Below, piece by piece: positions 4,748 through 18,868 of a stretch of 19,502 bases of DNA. The position numbers were made by a program, and so were the translations under genes. Each line of letters opens with the position of its first letter. Position 1 is the stretch's first letter. Below the pieces are notes generated by a model, which ran no database searches, was not told the DNA's origin, and worked only from the letters and a program-made list of their open reading frames with translations. The DNA is from Oscillospiraceae bacterium (GTDB lineage Bacteria > Bacillota_A > Clostridia > Oscillospirales > CAG-272): the NCBI GenBank assembly GCA_015064195.1, contig SVSO01000030.1, forward strand, positions 1-19,502. The letters are read 5' to 3'.

Positions 4748-6187
4748 TTACTGGAAATTTTCCATCAGTGCTTCAAACTTTGCTTCCAGAACAGGCAGCT
4801 TGGATGCCAGTGTGGAACTCCAGTTTCCATTATCGGCAATCGTATAGCGGAACATTTCCCATGTAAGGAGATTCAGCTGGCTGACGAATACACGTCCGAA
4901 ATCGAAGCAGATGGAGCCTCGGACGATATCGAGCATACGGACGGAATCTTCATCGTGCGTATACTTTACTTTCATGGCAGTTTCAAATACAGCGGGCGTT
5001 ACCGTCTTGTAGCCTTCATATGCCATCGCTTCCATCACGGCAGAGGACATATCCGCATCTCTTGCATCAACGGGGATTCCGTAAAGGGTATAGGTGAACG
5101 ATGTGACGGTCTGGAATTCATCATCCTCACTGTAGGTCGCGATCGGAACGACACCGAAATCGAAATTCACATCGCGCAGGGTAAAGGAAGCCTGCAGAAA
5201 CTCGTGATTCATGAAGAGGACGTTGCCGTTTGCGAAGGCAGATCCGGCAGGATTGGTGGTCATATCGTTGGAGCCGTCGTGGAAGATGGATTGCATCTTA
5301 TCCACAAGTGCGACAGCTTTCTCACTCGTGATATCCTCGGAGATAAAGGGATTACCGTTCTTATCGATCTCGACATAGCGGAGGCCTGCGGAAAACCAGT
5401 ATGCGTCGATAAATACCGCGCCGCTGCCGGAATAGCCGTAGCGGTCCTCATTATCCGCGCTTCCGTTGCCGTTCAGATCGGCATATGCGCCGCGGCACAG
5501 CTCCGCCATCTTATCGAGCGTCCACTTTCCTTCATCCACTAAGGCATACGGGCTTTCGAGATTCAGATCGTTAAAAAGATTTTTGTTGAAATAGGTGACG
5601 ACCATGTTGTAGAGCAGCTGATTGGAAATATCGCCGGTCGCGAAATACAGCTTACCGTTGACGACGGACTGGTCTTCCAGCTGACCGCACCACCACGGCT
5701 TATCCATGTCGATATATTCCGTTTCCAGGATATCCTGAAGTAAGCCTGCTGCAGCAAGCGTCGGGAAGCACATGGAATAGCCGGAGATGAAATCATACTC
5801 CGAGGTCTGCGCCATAACGCTCTTGGAGATCGCGGTAACATATTCACCCTGCTTTGCGTTATCGCTCCAGATGTCGATCAGCTCGAAATCAACATTCAGG
5901 CGGTTGCAGACAGCAACATAGCTGTTGTAAAGGGCATCGTCCACGACCTCGCCCGTCATTTCATCCGTGTTGAATTCCGGCATGAAAACTGCAGGATTTT
6001 TAACGATGCGGATGGTTTCTCCGCCGAAATCGAGATCTGCCGGCAGATCGGTCGCAAGCTCGGTGGTTTCCGATTCCGACTGCGTATCCGTATCGGTGGC
6101 CGGTGATTCTTCAACAGAGCCTCCGCAGGATGCGAATGTGCCGCAAAGCATAGCGACGAGCAGTGCATAAACTGTGTACTTTTTCAT
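4748..6187 (-). CDS. ABC transporter extracellular solute-binding lipoprotein (family 1 type)
   Basis: The product has 479 residues. It starts MKKYTVYALLVAMLCGTFAS followed by Cys21, a classic lipoprotein signal with lipobox FASC, then a Thr/Ser/Glu/Asp-rich linker to about residue 50, so it should be anchored outside the membrane. The body has FGGETIRIV, a YNSYVAVCNRLNVDFEL segment and a late CFDF block, as in family-1 sugar-binding proteins of Clostridia. DLNGNGSADNEDRY in the middle matches a DxNxNGxxDxxD calcium loop. AAGGAG precedes the ATG by 9 nt. It lies between the SGNH esterase (84-bp gap) and the PHP gene (26-bp gap) on the same strand. No permease or ATPase gene is near. It is a paralogue of the protein at 15036. 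An oligosaccharide ligand is inferred. Confidence 0.9.
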   Translation of the reverse strand: MKKYTVYALLVAMLCGTFASCGGSVEESPATDTDTQSESETTELATDLPADLDFGGETIRIVKNPAVFMPEFNTDEMTGEVVDDALYNSYVAVCNRLNVDFELIDIWSDNAKQGEYVTAISKSVMAQTSEYDFISGYSMCFPTLAAAGLLQDILETEYIDMDKPWWCGQLEDQSVVNGKLYFATGDISNQLLYNMVVTYFNKNLFNDLNLESPYALVDEGKWTLDKMAELCRGAYADLNGNGSADNEDRYGYSGSGAVFIDAYWFSAGLRYVEIDKNGNPFISEDITSEKAVALVDKMQSIFHDGSNDMTTNPAGSAFANGNVLFMNHEFLQASFTLRDVNFDFGVVPIATYSEDDEFQTVTSFTYTLYGIPVDARDADMSSAVMEAMAYEGYKTVTPAVFETAMKVKYTHDEDSVRMLDIVRGSICFDFGRVFVSQLNLLTWEMFRYTIADNGNWSSTLASKLPVLEAKFEALMENFQ

Positions 6188-8213: not shown

Positions 8214-8252
8214 AGGAGGAAAAGAGTGTGCCGGATGGCACACTCTATATAA
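8214..8252 (+). promoter_or_regulatory. Shine-Dalgarno, 8-codon mini-ORF and 10-bp hairpin before the 8260 start
   Basis: AGGAGG at 8214-8219 is 40 nt before the ATG at 8260 but only 6 nt before GTG at 8226, which opens an 8-codon frame (M-C-R-M-A-H-S-I) ending at TAA 8250-8252, 7 nt before the ATG. Nearly the whole mini-ORF is a hairpin: AGAGTGTGCC at 8223-8232 pairs with GGCACACTCT at 8237-8246 around a GGAT loop. No in-frame start lies near the Shine-Dalgarno. Translation of the large gene may depend on reinitiation, or on the hairpin bringing the Shine-Dalgarno close to the ATG. Confidence 0.55.
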
Positions 8253-8259
8253 GAAAGAT

Positions 8260-10875
8260 ATGTTTCAATATTTGCACTGTTATCTGCCGCAGACATGGGA
8301 TGCGCAGGTGCGCGCCGGTCTGATCAACGGGAATGCCGGTATCCGCTTTGTGGAGGCCATCACCTGTCTCGAGCATCTGAAATTCAATAATCTTGCAAAG
8401 CCGGGCGGCGATTTATTTAATGTCGCGCGTGAGCTGAACGGTCCTTTCTACATCGACCGTCTGCAGGGCGGCTGTTACATCGAAGATTATCCGTACGATA
8501 TGTCCATCGTTCAGGCATACCGCGATATGCTTGGCGACCGTTTCTGGGGATTTCAGATGCATGAATGGATGAGCAATCATAATAACGATTTCAACAAGCT
8601 GAAAATGGGTCATTGCCCGGAATGGACGGCGAAGGCGATTACCGATACGATTTTCCGCGTCTTTCCGTTCCGGTATGCGTTCTTGGAATCCATGACCGCA
8701 GAGGAACTCGCGGCTGCAGGATGTCCCGGGTCGCTTGACGATTTCATAAAAAGCAGTGAAATGCTGTTCGCCAGACGTCAGGCATATACGGGCGGAATGC
8801 TGCTCCCTTGTGACAGCTTCTATCTTTCTTATCCCATTGAGTTAAAGCTCGGTGCAAAACGCCTGATGCCGGAGATCGGAAGTCAGACACCGGATACAAG
8901 AATCCAGGTAGCCTATGCCCGCGGCATGGCCAAAGCATACCGCATTCCTTTCGGAACATACTATGAACCGTGGGGTGGTGAACCGTTCGCCGCCTGCTGT
9001 TATCAGCGCGACGGTTCAAACGAATGGAATCTCGGTGGCCCCAGCGACTTCCCGTTCCATACCGAGGGAGAAAACGGCGGCAGCTCCCGCTCGATGCAGC
9101 GCCGTCTCCATCTGTACTCCTATATGGCCGGTGCATCCTTCATGTCAGAGGAATGGGGTATGTGCAATACCTTCTATGACTGGAACGATTTCGAGCTGTC
9201 GCCGTACGGCATCGTCAAGCGCGATTTCATCCGATTCACGGAACGCTATCCCGATATCGGCAAGCCGATCGTCCCCATTGCCGTCGTTCTGCCGAAGGAG
9301 CTGCCTGCCTTTGAGATGGATGCCTTCGATTCCGACACCTATCTTGGCTACCCGGTATACGGTTCTTTTGCCGAAAAGCTGAAAAACGTCAAGACCGCGG
9401 TCAGAAAGCTCTTCTGTGAGAGCGGTCCGATGCTCGGCACGGAAACCCGAACGCTCCTCAACTGTACACTGCCGGATGCGCTCGATATGGTGCAGGAGGA
9501 CTGCGTCAAGACCGACGATTATCAATGGTTTATCGATCTTACCGGCTCTGACTCGTTTGCCAAGAAAGCGGCCGGAAAGATCTGCTCCGTCGATGAAGCC
9601 GGGGTGCTCCTTGATGAAGCCCTGCCGTGCACCGTCCGCGGCAATGGGATGAAGCAGTTCACAAAGACGGATGACGGTACCGTATACGTCCTCTTCACCA
9701 ATAACAGCGGCGTGATCCGTTCCGTTGCAGACGGCGAGGTTCTGTTAAAAGAAGCCGCTGAAGTTCTGACAGTCATGACAAAGAACGGTCAGTCTCTGCA
9801 GATGCTGGAAGGTGCAGCCGCATCCACCTTGATGAGTCCGGAATCTATCATATTGAGATTCCCGCAGGAGGCTGGTTCTTCGGCACACTTCGCTGACCGT
9901 AAAACTGATAAATCTGCCAGGAGATCTATTATTATGTCAATTGAGATCAATTATAACGATCAAACAGTAATGCAGAACGGGTTTCCCGTGATCCGGAAGA
10001 TGGGGGCTGTCAGCCCCTGCGGTGAATCCTCGCCGTTTGAATTCCACGGCCGGATCTACCGTCTGGAGCTGCAGGATTCCTCACACGGCATCAACAGCAA
10101 CAATACCGTTTTCGCGTTGATCCGTGACAGAGAGACCGGAGAGATTCTTTCCCGCTTCGGGCGCGGCTGTTATTATTATTCCCTGTATCAGGAGAATGAT
10201 ACCGTATATGTGATCGGGACAAAATATACGCCGCCGCATTTTTACAGCAGCACATTGATGATCTTTGAGAGCCGCGATCTCATCACATGGACCTGCCGTG
10301 AACTGCTTGGCAATCCCGGCTGGAAATTCTTCAATACCTCGCTGACCAAAGGCCCTGACGGGTATGTGCTGTGTGTGGAAACGGAGGGGCCTCCCGGATA
10401 TGACGGCATTCCGTTCACCGCATTTTTCGCCGCATCCAAGGACATGATCCACTGGGAATGGATGGATTATAACAAAGCTTATCCGAAGGAGCGCTACATC
10501 GGCGGCCCATGGCTCAGATACAGCCGCGGTTATTACTATCTGACCGGAAATGCGGAGCTGCCCTGCAACAGATTCGGGATCTATATCTATCGGACGAAGG
10601 ATTTTGACACATGGGAAATCGGCTATTACAATCCGATCATGCTGCCGGGAATCGAAGATAAAAAAATATCACCTTATGCCTATGATCTGACGAAGGAACA
10701 TCTCAGTCAGATCCGGACCGGATTTGTCTCCGGCAATTTGAATTTTGATATGTGTGATTGGAATAAAAAATCGCTGATCACCTACAATGCAGGAAATCTT
10801 TGCGGCTTCTGCTATCTTGCCGAAGCGGAATATGACGGATCTGTTGACGATTTTCTGGATGCCAACTTCCATTGA
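8260..10875 (+). CDS. Two-part glycosidase: TIM-barrel-like half joined to GH43/GH117-like beta-propeller half
   Basis: The product has 871 residues and no signal peptide. Residues 1-550 look like a glycosidase catalytic region of a family I cannot name: FWGFQMHEWMSNHNND early, then TYYEPWGGEPFAACC with a candidate catalytic Glu, then FMSEEWGMCNTFYDW with adjacent glutamates, then a beta-rich end finishing ESIILRFPQEA. Residues 559-871 read as a separate domain: repeated propeller-blade patterns (STLMIFESRDLITWTCRELL, FFAASKDMIHWEW, FGIYIYRTKDFDTWEIGYYN) like five-bladed GH43/GH117-type propellers. The 24-residue joint looks like translated intergenic DNA and contains a ribosome site and ATG at 9919-9936, so this may be two genes fused by a shift, with the second half also made separately. 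It is first in the operon under the AraC-type promoter; the GH106-like gene follows after 46 bp. Confidence 0.75.
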   Translation: MFQYLHCYLPQTWDAQVRAGLINGNAGIRFVEAITCLEHLKFNNLAKPGGDLFNVARELNGPFYIDRLQGGCYIEDYPYDMSIVQAYRDMLGDRFWGFQMHEWMSNHNNDFNKLKMGHCPEWTAKAITDTIFRVFPFRYAFLESMTAEELAAAGCPGSLDDFIKSSEMLFARRQAYTGGMLLPCDSFYLSYPIELKLGAKRLMPEIGSQTPDTRIQVAYARGMAKAYRIPFGTYYEPWGGEPFAACCYQRDGSNEWNLGGPSDFPFHTEGENGGSSRSMQRRLHLYSYMAGASFMSEEWGMCNTFYDWNDFELSPYGIVKRDFIRFTERYPDIGKPIVPIAVVLPKELPAFEMDAFDSDTYLGYPVYGSFAEKLKNVKTAVRKLFCESGPMLGTETRTLLNCTLPDALDMVQEDCVKTDDYQWFIDLTGSDSFAKKAAGKICSVDEAGVLLDEALPCTVRGNGMKQFTKTDDGTVYVLFTNNSGVIRSVADGEVLLKEAAEVLTVMTKNGQSLQMLEGAAASTLMSPESIILRFPQEAGSSAHFADRKTDKSARRSIIMSIEINYNDQTVMQNGFPVIRKMGAVSPCGESSPFEFHGRIYRLELQDSSHGINSNNTVFALIRDRETGEILSRFGRGCYYYSLYQENDTVYVIGTKYTPPHFYSSTLMIFESRDLITWTCRELLGNPGWKFFNTSLTKGPDGYVLCVETEGPPGYDGIPFTAFFAASKDMIHWEWMDYNKAYPKERYIGGPWLRYSRGYYYLTGNAELPCNRFGIYIYRTKDFDTWEIGYYNPIMLPGIEDKKISPYAYDLTKEHLSQIRTGFVSGNLNFDMCDWNKKSLITYNAGNLCGFCYLAEAEYDGSVDDFLDANFH
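9919..9936 (+). promoter_or_regulatory. Internal ribosome site and ATG for the propeller half
   Basis: AGGAG at 9919-9923 lies 10 nt before ATG 9934-9936, which is in frame with the large gene (residue 559) and begins MSIEINYNDQTVMQNGFPVI. Initiation here would give a 313-residue protein ending at 10875, a normal size for a free-standing GH43-like propeller. Confidence 0.55.
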
Positions 10876-15035: not shown

Positions 15036-16487
15036 TCAACGGTAAGGTTCAAGCAGCTTATCAAATGCTTTTTCTGCAAATGCCTGCTTGGATGCATATT
15101 TGGACTGAAGATTGCCATTGTTGCTGCGGAAGCAGTCCACCATGGTGTGTGCCGCATAGTTCATGGTACTGGAATTCATAAAAACAAAGTCGAAGCAAAG
15201 TGTTTCACGGATCAGCTCCAGCATTTTCACACTCTCTTCATCCCGCGCAACCTTGTTTTTGCAAACCACCTCATAGAAGGCCGGCACGACCAGCTTACAG
15301 CTCTCGGATGCCATGGCCTCCATCACCATGCCCGCAAGCTCCATATCACTGCCATTCGGCAGGAGGAAGGATGTATAAGAATCGCCAAGTGTATTACGGT
15401 ATTCTGGCTGTGCTTCATCAAATTTAGGATAAGGAAGAATACCAAATTCCGTGTTGTTTTCACGCAGTGCGGTGGAATTTTCAAGGCTTGCGGCAAGAAG
15501 CAGCAGGTTGCCGCCGTCAAACAGCGTGATCAAATCCTGTTCGGTCGCACCCTTGTATACAAATGCGCCCGGTTCATTCCAATACAGTGCATTGAGCTTT
15601 TCCAGTGCATCCTGCGCCCGGTCGGAAGCGATATTCAGCTTGGGGAAACCGTCATCACCAACCGTGTACATGGGCAGATCAAAGGAGGTCTGATAAGCGT
15701 AAATATCCTGATCGAGATTGGTTGCGATGGCATAGCGGTCTTCCGCATCTGCCTCTGTGTTGCCGTTCAGATCGCTGTAGGCATTCTTTGTCAGCGATAC
15801 CAGCATATCATATGTCCATCTTCCGTCATGCACGATCTCATACAGGCTCTCATCGCTTACAGTTTCAGCCATTTTCTGATTGAAGAAGAAACAGCGGCTG
15901 TAGGACCAGATGGTCAGCGCGGAGTCTCCGGTGATCATGTAGATGTGATCGTTGATGGTCATGGTGTCATTGATACCCTTTGCCCACCAGCGTCTGTCGA
16001 GATCAATATGCGGCACAGTGCTCCAGTCCTGGAACAGCTTTTCGCCGATGAGGGCAGCGATCATGGGCGTATAGCCGGCAATCACCTGATAGGAATTGTC
16101 ACCTGCCATGCTGTCCTGCCGCACCTTTTTGTTGAATGCCGTAGACTCATCGCCCCATGCACAAGGTTGGGAAATAAATTCCAGCTTGATATTGAGCCGT
16201 TCCTCCACTTTGCGGTTGCGGTTGTATACTGCATCATTAACAATGTCGCCGTTTTCCGATTCCACGTCAAATTCGTATTTTTGGCCATCACGGATGAGCA
16301 TGGTAAAGCTTTCCCCGCCAAAATCAGCCTCCGGCAGACCGTCTGTCTCCTCCGTGACAGCTTCGGTGGTATCTGTCACCACTTCCGAATCGGTGTCGGT
16401 GACGGTTTCGGGTGTATCTGCACCGCCGCCGCAGCTGACGAGCAGGCAAAGTGCCAGAATAAGTGCTGAATAATTTCTGTTTTTCAT
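15036..16487 (-). CDS. ABC transporter extracellular solute-binding lipoprotein (second copy)
   Basis: The product has 483 residues from ATG at 16487, preceded by AAAGGAG; the ATG at 16505 overlaps that ribosome site and the GH2 stop codon. MKNRNYSALILALCLLVSC gives a lipobox with Cys19, followed by a Thr/Asp/Glu-rich linker to about residue 50. The body shows FGGESFTMLI, VYNRNRKVEERLNIKLEF, DLNGNTEADAEDRY (a calcium-loop-like DxNxN segment with the glycine changed) and a late CFDF block, all at the same relative places as in the protein at 4748, so the two are paralogues. The gene lies 14 bp after GH2 and 14 bp before the GH28-like gene, with ribosome sites abutting the upstream stop codons, so translation is likely coupled. 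No permease gene is near. The ligand is inferred to be an oligosaccharide processed by GH2 and GH28-like enzymes. Confidence 0.9.
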   Translation of the reverse strand: MKNRNYSALILALCLLVSCGGGADTPETVTDTDSEVVTDTTEAVTEETDGLPEADFGGESFTMLIRDGQKYEFDVESENGDIVNDAVYNRNRKVEERLNIKLEFISQPCAWGDESTAFNKKVRQDSMAGDNSYQVIAGYTPMIAALIGEKLFQDWSTVPHIDLDRRWWAKGINDTMTINDHIYMITGDSALTIWSYSRCFFFNQKMAETVSDESLYEIVHDGRWTYDMLVSLTKNAYSDLNGNTEADAEDRYAIATNLDQDIYAYQTSFDLPMYTVGDDGFPKLNIASDRAQDALEKLNALYWNEPGAFVYKGATEQDLITLFDGGNLLLLAASLENSTALRENNTEFGILPYPKFDEAQPEYRNTLGDSYTSFLLPNGSDMELAGMVMEAMASESCKLVVPAFYEVVCKNKVARDEESVKMLELIRETLCFDFVFMNSSTMNYAAHTMVDCFRSNNGNLQSKYASKQAFAEKAFDKLLEPYR

Positions 16488-16501
16488 AATGGTAACTCCT
16501 T

Positions 16502-18868
16502 TCATTCTTTTATTATACGCGATATGGTTTCATACATATCGTCTCTGCTGATAAATCCGGCGATGGTTTTGACCCAGCGTTTCATATCGTTGAGCGCAAA
16601 CGCCGGTGTGCCGTGAATGTAGTGATTGACCCCGCGGATGCCGTTCGCCTCCCATTCGATGAGCAGCAGCCGTTTCTCCGACCATGCGATGTCGATGCCG
16701 TTCACGCCAATCGTGCTGTTGGACGGCACACGGGTCTGTCCGTGCAGCAGAAGTGCACCGCTGTCGCCGTCCGTTACACGGTAGGTAATGTTCTGCTCCT
16801 CGAAGGTATCATTGGCTGCATACAGCCGGATCGACCAGTCGCGCGGCTCGTCGAAGGAGAGCATCACATTCTGCTGGGACTGGCGGATGTAGTAATACGC
16901 CAGCTTTTTGTGATAATCCCAGCTGACAACGGCATCGGAGAACTGCGGCCAGCCGTCGATCATGTTCCACCAGATGATGCCGCTCCGTGTCCATTTGAGC
17001 TGGCGGGAGGATTCGATGAAATACTTATCCGCCTCCGCCTGTGATACCTGTGACATGAAGATATAATCCTCAAGATTGTCCGGCTGACTGCCGAACAGCT
17101 GGTAGATCTGCCGCGCCATCAGCGGAATACGGTAAGCGTACGGCCCGGCTTCACCGTACATCTCTGCGGCGTGTGTGATCCATTCATCATTTCCCTGCCA
17201 CGGCCACAGCTTGTCCGGTGACAGGAAGGATTCCATCGATTCTCTGTCACAGCTGCCATGATAGCCGATCTCGCTGATGAACGGACAGCGCAGATTCCGA
17301 TAATAGGGGCTTTTGAAGTAATCGCGGGAACCCCACGGATGATCCTCCGGAAGCAGCGGTTTGTACGGCTCTGCCGATACCCATGTTTCGGAATAGGGTG
17401 TAGATTTCAGCCGATCCGCCTGCTTAATGGTGCGCATGGTGGCATACGGCGAGGACGGAAGATACGGCCGAAACGGATCGACCCGCCGCAGTACCTCCGG
17501 AAGTACATCGCGTGTGATGCGGTTCTTGTCCGGATCGTGCTTTGCGATGGACCACAGATGGGCATCGCATTCATTGTCGCCGCTCCATAGAATCAAAGAC
17601 GGATGCCGTCGCAGACGCTTTGCCGTTGCTTCCGCTTCTGCTTTCATTGCCTCGGCAAAGGAATCGGTCTGAGGATAAAACGCACAGGCCATAGCAAAAT
17701 CCTGCCAGACCATGATACCCAGCCGGTCACATCGGTCAAAAAACTCGTCGCCTTCGTAGCAATTGCCGCCCCAGCAACGGAGAATGTTGCAGCCTGAGTC
17801 AGCAAACAGCTCCAGCATTTTCTCATACCGGGATGCGGAACGGCTGTGGAGTGCATCGGCAGGCACCCAGTTGGAGCCGCGGCAGAAAATCTTCTGTCCG
17901 TTGATCTCAAAATGAAAATCGCCGTCGTATTCATCGCTGATTTCCGAATGCACCAGTTTGACCGTGCGAATTCCGAAAGTAGTTTGATAATCTGCCAGCA
18001 CCTCTTCGCCGCAGATCAGCTCTGCTTTGATCTCGTATATCGGCGCATCTCCATATCCGCGCGGCCACCACAGTGCCGGATTCTCCACGCGGAAAAAGAA
18101 ATTTCCGTTTGGAAAGCGAACCGTATGGTCATAGCGGAATGCCCTCACGCCGTCAAGACTGCCGGTCAGCCGCAGAATCAGCCCGTCGTGATAGGGCACA
18201 TCGGTACGCAGACGAAACGAGCAGCCAAGCTTCGCCGATGCGCTGTTTGCATCTACGGTGGCCAGATACAGCTCGGCAATCTCGTTCGCATCCTCAATCT
18301 CCAGCATCACATCCTTCCAGATGCCTGCCGAAACCAGCCGCGGCATAATGTCCCAGCCATACTGCGACGGCGCTTTCCGCACCGTCAGCGATTCATAGTT
18401 GATGTGATATGCCCACTCAAATGCATCGTTCGGCTGTGCTTCCGCAAAGATCAGCGGAGAGGCGATATCGATTTCCAGCGTATTTTCACCGATTCGCACC
18501 GAATCCGGCATAGGAAAGCGATGATCGATCAGCGCATTTTCCGTGTGGGCAAATTTCTCACCGTTGAGAGAATAATCTGCGATGCAGTCAACGCCCAAAA
18601 AGTGCAGGAATGCGTGCTGACCTGCCGAAAGCTCCGGCATACGGAACTTGAGTGTGTAGTGCCAGTGATAGAATTCATACGCTCTTGCGAGCTTGATGTT
18701 GTTAGCCTGATACAGCTCCGGCAGAATACCCGACCGCATCAGATCAAGCTCCACATTTCCGGGAATTACCGCCTCGATCTCCGTTTCGGGCGACGGCATC
18801 CCGCGGCGTCTCGCTTCCTCATCATAGAAGCGAAGCCTGCATTGTCCGCTCAGTGATAGTTGTTTCAT
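16502..18868 (-). CDS. Glycoside hydrolase family 2, beta-mannosidase-like
   Basis: The product has 788 residues, near the usual 800-870 for this subfamily. Order of parts: a jelly-roll sugar-binding domain (1-200; FYHWHYTLKF, FLHFLGVDCIADYSLNG), an immunoglobulin-like domain ending FGIRTVKL, a TIM barrel from about 320 (GSNWVPADAL, NILRCWGG), and a beta-rich tail. The acid/base is Glu433 in WSGDNEC and the nucleophile Glu533 in SEIGYHG, both intact; GNWVPAD-like and GNNE-like motifs are characteristic of beta-mannosidase-type GH2 rather than LacZ-type. There is no signal peptide, so it is cytoplasmic. AAAGGAGG precedes the ATG by 6 nt. It is the first gene of the operon and lies next to a tandem AraC gene. 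Beta-mannoside activity is the best guess; beta-glucosaminide or related activities occur in the same subfamily. Confidence 0.92.
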   Translation of the reverse strand: MKQLSLSGQCRLRFYDEEARRRGMPSPETEIEAVIPGNVELDLMRSGILPELYQANNIKLARAYEFYHWHYTLKFRMPELSAGQHAFLHFLGVDCIADYSLNGEKFAHTENALIDHRFPMPDSVRIGENTLEIDIASPLIFAEAQPNDAFEWAYHINYESLTVRKAPSQYGWDIMPRLVSAGIWKDVMLEIEDANEIAELYLATVDANSASAKLGCSFRLRTDVPYHDGLILRLTGSLDGVRAFRYDHTVRFPNGNFFFRVENPALWWPRGYGDAPIYEIKAELICGEEVLADYQTTFGIRTVKLVHSEISDEYDGDFHFEINGQKIFCRGSNWVPADALHSRSASRYEKMLELFADSGCNILRCWGGNCYEGDEFFDRCDRLGIMVWQDFAMACAFYPQTDSFAEAMKAEAEATAKRLRRHPSLILWSGDNECDAHLWSIAKHDPDKNRITRDVLPEVLRRVDPFRPYLPSSPYATMRTIKQADRLKSTPYSETWVSAEPYKPLLPEDHPWGSRDYFKSPYYRNLRCPFISEIGYHGSCDRESMESFLSPDKLWPWQGNDEWITHAAEMYGEAGPYAYRIPLMARQIYQLFGSQPDNLEDYIFMSQVSQAEADKYFIESSRQLKWTRSGIIWWNMIDGWPQFSDAVVSWDYHKKLAYYYIRQSQQNVMLSFDEPRDWSIRLYAANDTFEEQNITYRVTDGDSGALLLHGQTRVPSNSTIGVNGIDIAWSEKRLLLIEWEANGIRGVNHYIHGTPAFALNDMKRWVKTIAGFISRDDMYETISRIIKE

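Follow-up and report, generated by a model that had tools for sequence, protein, structure and literature searches.

Within the window (a stretch of 19,502 nucleotides from contig SVSO01000030.1 of an Oscillospiraceae bacterium) we identified a single open reading frame on the forward strand (8260-10875). It comprises 871 codons and stays open across the joint between two glycosidase-like halves, in agreement with the original prediction. The two halves correspond to two genes that appear to lie within a cluster for carbohydrate use. The features of the locus are collected in Table 1.

Table 1. Features of the joined open reading frame and of its joint
Feature	Position	Strand	Description and basis
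Upstream gene, part in native frame	8260..9813	+	518 codons, barrel-type glycosidase-like; relatives about 545 aa
Frame-change site	9814..9815	+	Net deficit of one base against relatives; placed to within a few bases
Displaced end of the upstream gene: its last 26 codons (SRIHLDESGIYHIEIPAGGWFFGTLR), formerly in frame, with their stop TGA (9894-9896)	9816..9896	+	Profile, endings of relatives, codon usage
Earlier spacer between the genes (37 bases), containing old-frame stops TAA 9900, TGA 9906 and TAA 9909	9897..9933	+	
AGGAG, likely ribosome site of the downstream gene	9919..9923	+	Sequence; AAAGGAG at the matching place in locus L001
Downstream gene with its own start	9934..10875	+	313 aa, propeller-type glycosidase-like; lengths of relatives, model, nearest folds

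Between AGGAGG (8214-8219) and the ATG at 8260 there is an inverted repeat of 10 bp without mismatches (8223-8232 / 8237-8246), its arms separated by a loop of 4 bases. Folding of 8214-8262 gave a z score of -2.1, and 3 of 200 shuffled sequences were equally stable. No counterpart of this hairpin was seen by eye at the matching place in 24 upstream stretches of relatives' loci, and Rfam gave no match within the window. One locus (L005) has a hairpin just ahead of its ribosome site. Elsewhere in the window, two proteins encoded on the reverse strand (4748-6187 and 15036-16505; 479 and 489 aa) have lipoprotein-like beginnings. They did not match Pfam at E 0.01; reading their sequences, we take them to resemble solute-binding proteins. 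Relatives of both occur near genes of the upstream family in L004, L006, L010, L019 and L021.

The upstream gene belongs to a large family of barrel-type, glycosidase-like proteins of about 545 aa, most of whose members are unnamed. A search with the first half (549 residues), in which only the 7998 best candidates were scored, found 552 matches, 120 of which were listed. All but two of the listed matches stand alone as proteins, 534-558 aa long; the exceptions are the window's own 871-aa protein and a 360-aa fragment. The upstream half has no sequence match in Pfam, NCBIfam or the PDB, and there is no precomputed Pfam domain in the 120 listed relatives (of 552 matches). Invariant glutamates are present in the family alignment. 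Structure predictions were made for one relative (P0002) and for the second half of the window's protein. The fold of P0002 is nearest to the barrel glycosidases GH164, GH42 and GH98, although identity to these is just 10-12%.

Relatives of the downstream half likewise occur as proteins in their own right, 275-334 aa long (120 listed of 163 matches, from a search that could not return proteins longer than about 548 aa). The ATG at 9934 agrees with the starts of these relatives (e.g., P0121, MSIEINYDAS...). The model of this half (pLDDT 94.3) is a propeller, a fold that has five blades in glycosidases of this type. Its nearest solved folds are GH130 and GH43-type propeller glycosidases, alike in fold with identity of about 10%. 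The propeller described in the original prediction (GH43/GH117-like) is confirmed as to its fold, that of GH43/GH130-type propeller glycosidases. For this half the window's own protein matched nothing in Pfam, NCBIfam or the PDB at the sequence level; among the 120 listed relatives (163 matches), PF04616 is present in 3 and PF00251 in 1.

We located the end of the upstream gene using a profile of length 545 built from 59 members of its family (P0002-P0060). In the phase of the open frame (phase 0) the window matches this profile from residue 1 with 922 bits, and the alignment nominally reaches position 534 but fits poorly at its end. The tail read two bases later in each codon (phase 2) matches positions 520-544 of 545 (E 1.4e-6, a value that holds for the search of three reading phases only). 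LEG, which the relatives share, closes the phase-0 match, and from 9816 onward it is phase 2 that fits. The phase-2 tail scores above the phase-0 reading against every one of the 59 relatives (mean identity 46% vs 16%). Its peptide, SRIHLDESGIYHIEIPAGGWFFGTLR, stops at the TGA at 9894-9896, and the relatives end alike (e.g., P0005, QYHIDLPAGGWFFGTIR).

A codon-usage model trained on the window's other genes, which makes no use of relatives, favours phase 2 in 9816-9893 by 16.3 nats. As a control, 413 stretches of equal length over the genes were scored; 8 favoured a wrong phase, the strongest by 7.1 nats. Of these eight, two are neighbours, in the same phase, within the AraC gene (2.3 and 1.8 nats). 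The switch in codon usage falls between about 9780 and 9817. Given the change of phase in the profile, the tail scores and the switch in codon usage, the reading frame breaks at about 9813-9816, with a net change of one base fewer than in the relatives.

This places the break farther upstream than was first proposed. The original prediction had the first half ending in a normal-looking beta strand (ESIILRFPQEA), followed by some 20 residues of translated intergenic DNA. Since the phase-2 tail is the conserved C-terminus of the family, the supposed strand is that C-terminus read out of frame. Former stop and intergenic bases do form part of what follows, as proposed, but the stretch that is not native is 40 residues long (9814-9933), and about 80 of its 120 bases were formerly coding. 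The joint otherwise retains the features described: four stops occur in the frame two bases later (TGA 9894, TAA 9900, TGA 9906 and TAA 9909), and the AGGAG, the likely internal ribosome site, is present 10 nt upstream of the in-frame ATG at 9934. In locus L001, AAAGGAG is found at the corresponding spot ahead of a separate second gene.

When the two halves were searched separately, as the original prediction had proposed, the listed relatives proved to be separate proteins. Because the search with the second half could not return proteins longer than about 548 aa, that half was also scored against proteins as long as the fusion, and of 522 candidates just the window's own protein passed. The alternative named in the original prediction, an old fusion shown by many homologues joined through a conserved linker, thus found no support among these 522 candidates. 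The broken and fused form does not recur among relatives (522 fusion-sized candidates; 120 listed matches of 552), and the native C-terminus is conserved in another frame just past the break, both as in a singleton frameshift near the 3' end of a gene. An old, selected fusion, with the joint serving as a true linker in a bifunctional glycosidase, is highly improbable: the frame is open through the joint, but no fused relative was found among the 522 candidates, and the old C-terminus, which forms the last three strands in the model of P0002, is still conserved in the lost frame.

Relatives do occur side by side. Among 33 loci in genome contigs that carry the first family, the second family is its direct neighbour in three (L001, L013 and L033), each time with a stop codon between the genes. 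The second gene follows the first after a gap of 24 bases in L001 and of 14 bases in L033. In L001 the second ATG happens to share the phase of the first gene, behind the stop of that gene. The order in L013 (6019-8586) is reversed, with the propeller gene first and a gap of 12 bases; thus the pair has been rearranged and has remained adjacent. Both families are present in L027, far apart and on opposite strands, and no second-family gene was found in the DNA fetched for the remaining 29 loci, some of which ends at a contig end.

Contigs and locus tags hint at other pairs. P0010 and P0132 are on one contig with neighbouring tags (ACOYI8_00045 and ACOYI8_00040), and the equal-sized longest contigs named for P0023 and P0183 (5601) and for P0018 and P0186 (4122) suggest further pairs of the two families. 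Second-family genes were matched in 9 of 19 genomes behind the loci at E 1e-30 and in 8 of 295 genomes at E 1e-80, and first-family genes in 7 of 394 genomes at E 1e-150 (loci L051-L057). No closer neighbouring pair was seen in these added searches, with L051-L057 lying outside the second-family scan. In one genome (G016) the second gene (69%) is on a stretch (L034) from which the first gene is absent. A joint alignment of both halves, with the window's protein as bridge, misaligned the first half and was not used. An exact search of viral contigs with 35 window bases across the break found nothing, a result that says little about a bacterial chromosome. Overall, the pairing of the two families recurs but is not general.

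We conclude that these are very probably two ordinary neighbouring genes joined by a frame break in the upstream one, rather than an established fusion. Several observations were counted against such an accidental join. The pairing is not general, as the 29 loci and L027 illustrate, and the nearest relatives listed for the two halves (P0002-P0005 and P0121) were not seen as pairs. The listing of the 871-aa protein on two contigs would fit a real, established allele, and small preferences for the wrong phase occur elsewhere, as in the control windows above. The suggestion that a one-base indel joined two genes holds in that the net change is one base and the genes were ancestrally separate neighbours; its placement does not, as the break is upstream of the supposed last strand, inside the last approximately 26 codons.

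Before the break, the stop of a barrel glycosidase-like gene would have been followed after 37 bases by a propeller glycosidase-like gene that has a ribosome site to itself. Losing one base net at about 9813-9816 would have shifted the frame of roughly the last 26 codons of the upstream gene. The shifted frame happens to be free of stops up to the in-frame ATG of the downstream gene, and a single frame of 871 codons results.

A different explanation of the locus would be programmed frameshifting, with ribosomes slipping back one base at about 9813 to make a normal first enzyme and the fusion as an alternative product. A slip in that direction and at that place would join the two conserved frames, and phase 2 has no stop between 9762 and 9894. 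However, an XXXYYY-type slippery run and a long homopolymer are absent from 9701-9900, the region tested, and the relatives encode the first protein without a shift, which makes this the least credible of the explanations considered. Both programmed slippage and an old fusion were rejected, the former for want of an XXXYYY slippery heptamer (9701-9900), the latter for the conserved tail in the lost frame and the absence of fused homologues among the 522 fusion-sized candidates.

The age of the break bears on whether the base is missing in the organism or in the consensus only. We compared the tail of the window with those of 39 relatives (P0002-P0040), binning tail identity by identity of the body to the window. 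At 55-60% body identity the tail of the window is 41.7% identical to the relatives' tails (n = 14), vs 42.1% between relatives (343 pairs). The corresponding values are 47.8% (n = 18) vs 47.0% (251 pairs) at 60-65%, 55.4% (n = 5) vs 54.9% (48 pairs) at 65-70%, and 71.2% (2 comparisons) vs 57.8% (14 pairs) at 70-75%. The tail is thus undecayed in the lost frame, which means a break that is recent by this measure, or else an error.

The chances are about even that the loss is a real, recent mutation of the strain, which would damage the C-terminal end of the first enzyme and join this enzyme to the second. No homopolymer (at least 5 A/T or at least 4 G/C) was found in 9701-9900, the window's other tested genes show no frame switch comparable to that at 9813-9816, and the fused protein is listed on two contigs. 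These observations also count against an error, as the site has no error-prone homopolymer and the tested genes have no other frame break. On the other side, the tail shows zero decay, and a single set of reads, assembled twice, may lie behind both contigs. An error of sequencing or assembly, with two normal genes in the organism, is a serious possibility, though one that falls a little short of even. It accords with the undecayed tail, with the intact stops, gap and ribosome site, and with a fused form found nowhere else (522 fusion-sized candidates).

Passages of the GeneTack survey of frameshift genes in prokaryotic genomes (PMC3711429) bear on both explanations. They state sequencing error or a recent indel as the causes of singleton frameshifts. 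Singletons at the 3' end are there held to be relatively likelier to be indel mutations, which favours a mutation here, and singletons validated by BLASTp are expected to be sequencing errors rather than indels, which favours an error. The locus resembles these singletons in that one gene is broken near its 3' end while the relatives are intact. Unlike them, its new frame enters the next gene and joins two open frames; these passages deal mostly with transitions by which one gene is split or overlapping genes become linked. On balance, a recent mutation is slightly favoured over a sequence or assembly error.

If the loss is real, translation from 8260 would yield a first enzyme whose last strands are replaced by 40 foreign residues, and would then carry on into the propeller. 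Ribosomes may also still start at 9934: the old stops, the 37-base gap, the AGGAG and the ATG at 9934 all survive, and therefore the propeller may still be made alone, via internal initiation. The second activity is probably kept. The first enzyme is probably impaired in its C-terminal beta domain, with weakened activity, as the displaced stretch corresponds to the last three strands of the P0002 model (521-524, 530-534 and 539-544). For this reason a working bifunctional enzyme, as originally proposed, appears unlikely on the evidence of the model: the break replaces the conserved C-terminus of the first enzyme. The support for such an enzyme consists of the open frame, in which the two domains are not both complete, the first leaving its native frame about 26 codons early. 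A bolder reading is improbable as a whole: a real loss has become fixed in this lineage, the strand-like out-of-frame residues SIILRFP take the place of a lost native strand, and the cell produces a working two-domain glycosidase along with free propeller from the retained internal start, a fusion caught at its birth.

The locus illustrates how one missing base can open a frame across two plausible enzymes, so that automatic annotation would record a bifunctional enzyme that does not exist. Should reads show that the loss is real, this would be a very young gene fusion in which the ancestral joint is still fully legible. Both families, whose copies in the window are without a Pfam or NCBIfam match, look like uncharacterised glycosidases that are worth testing in their own right.
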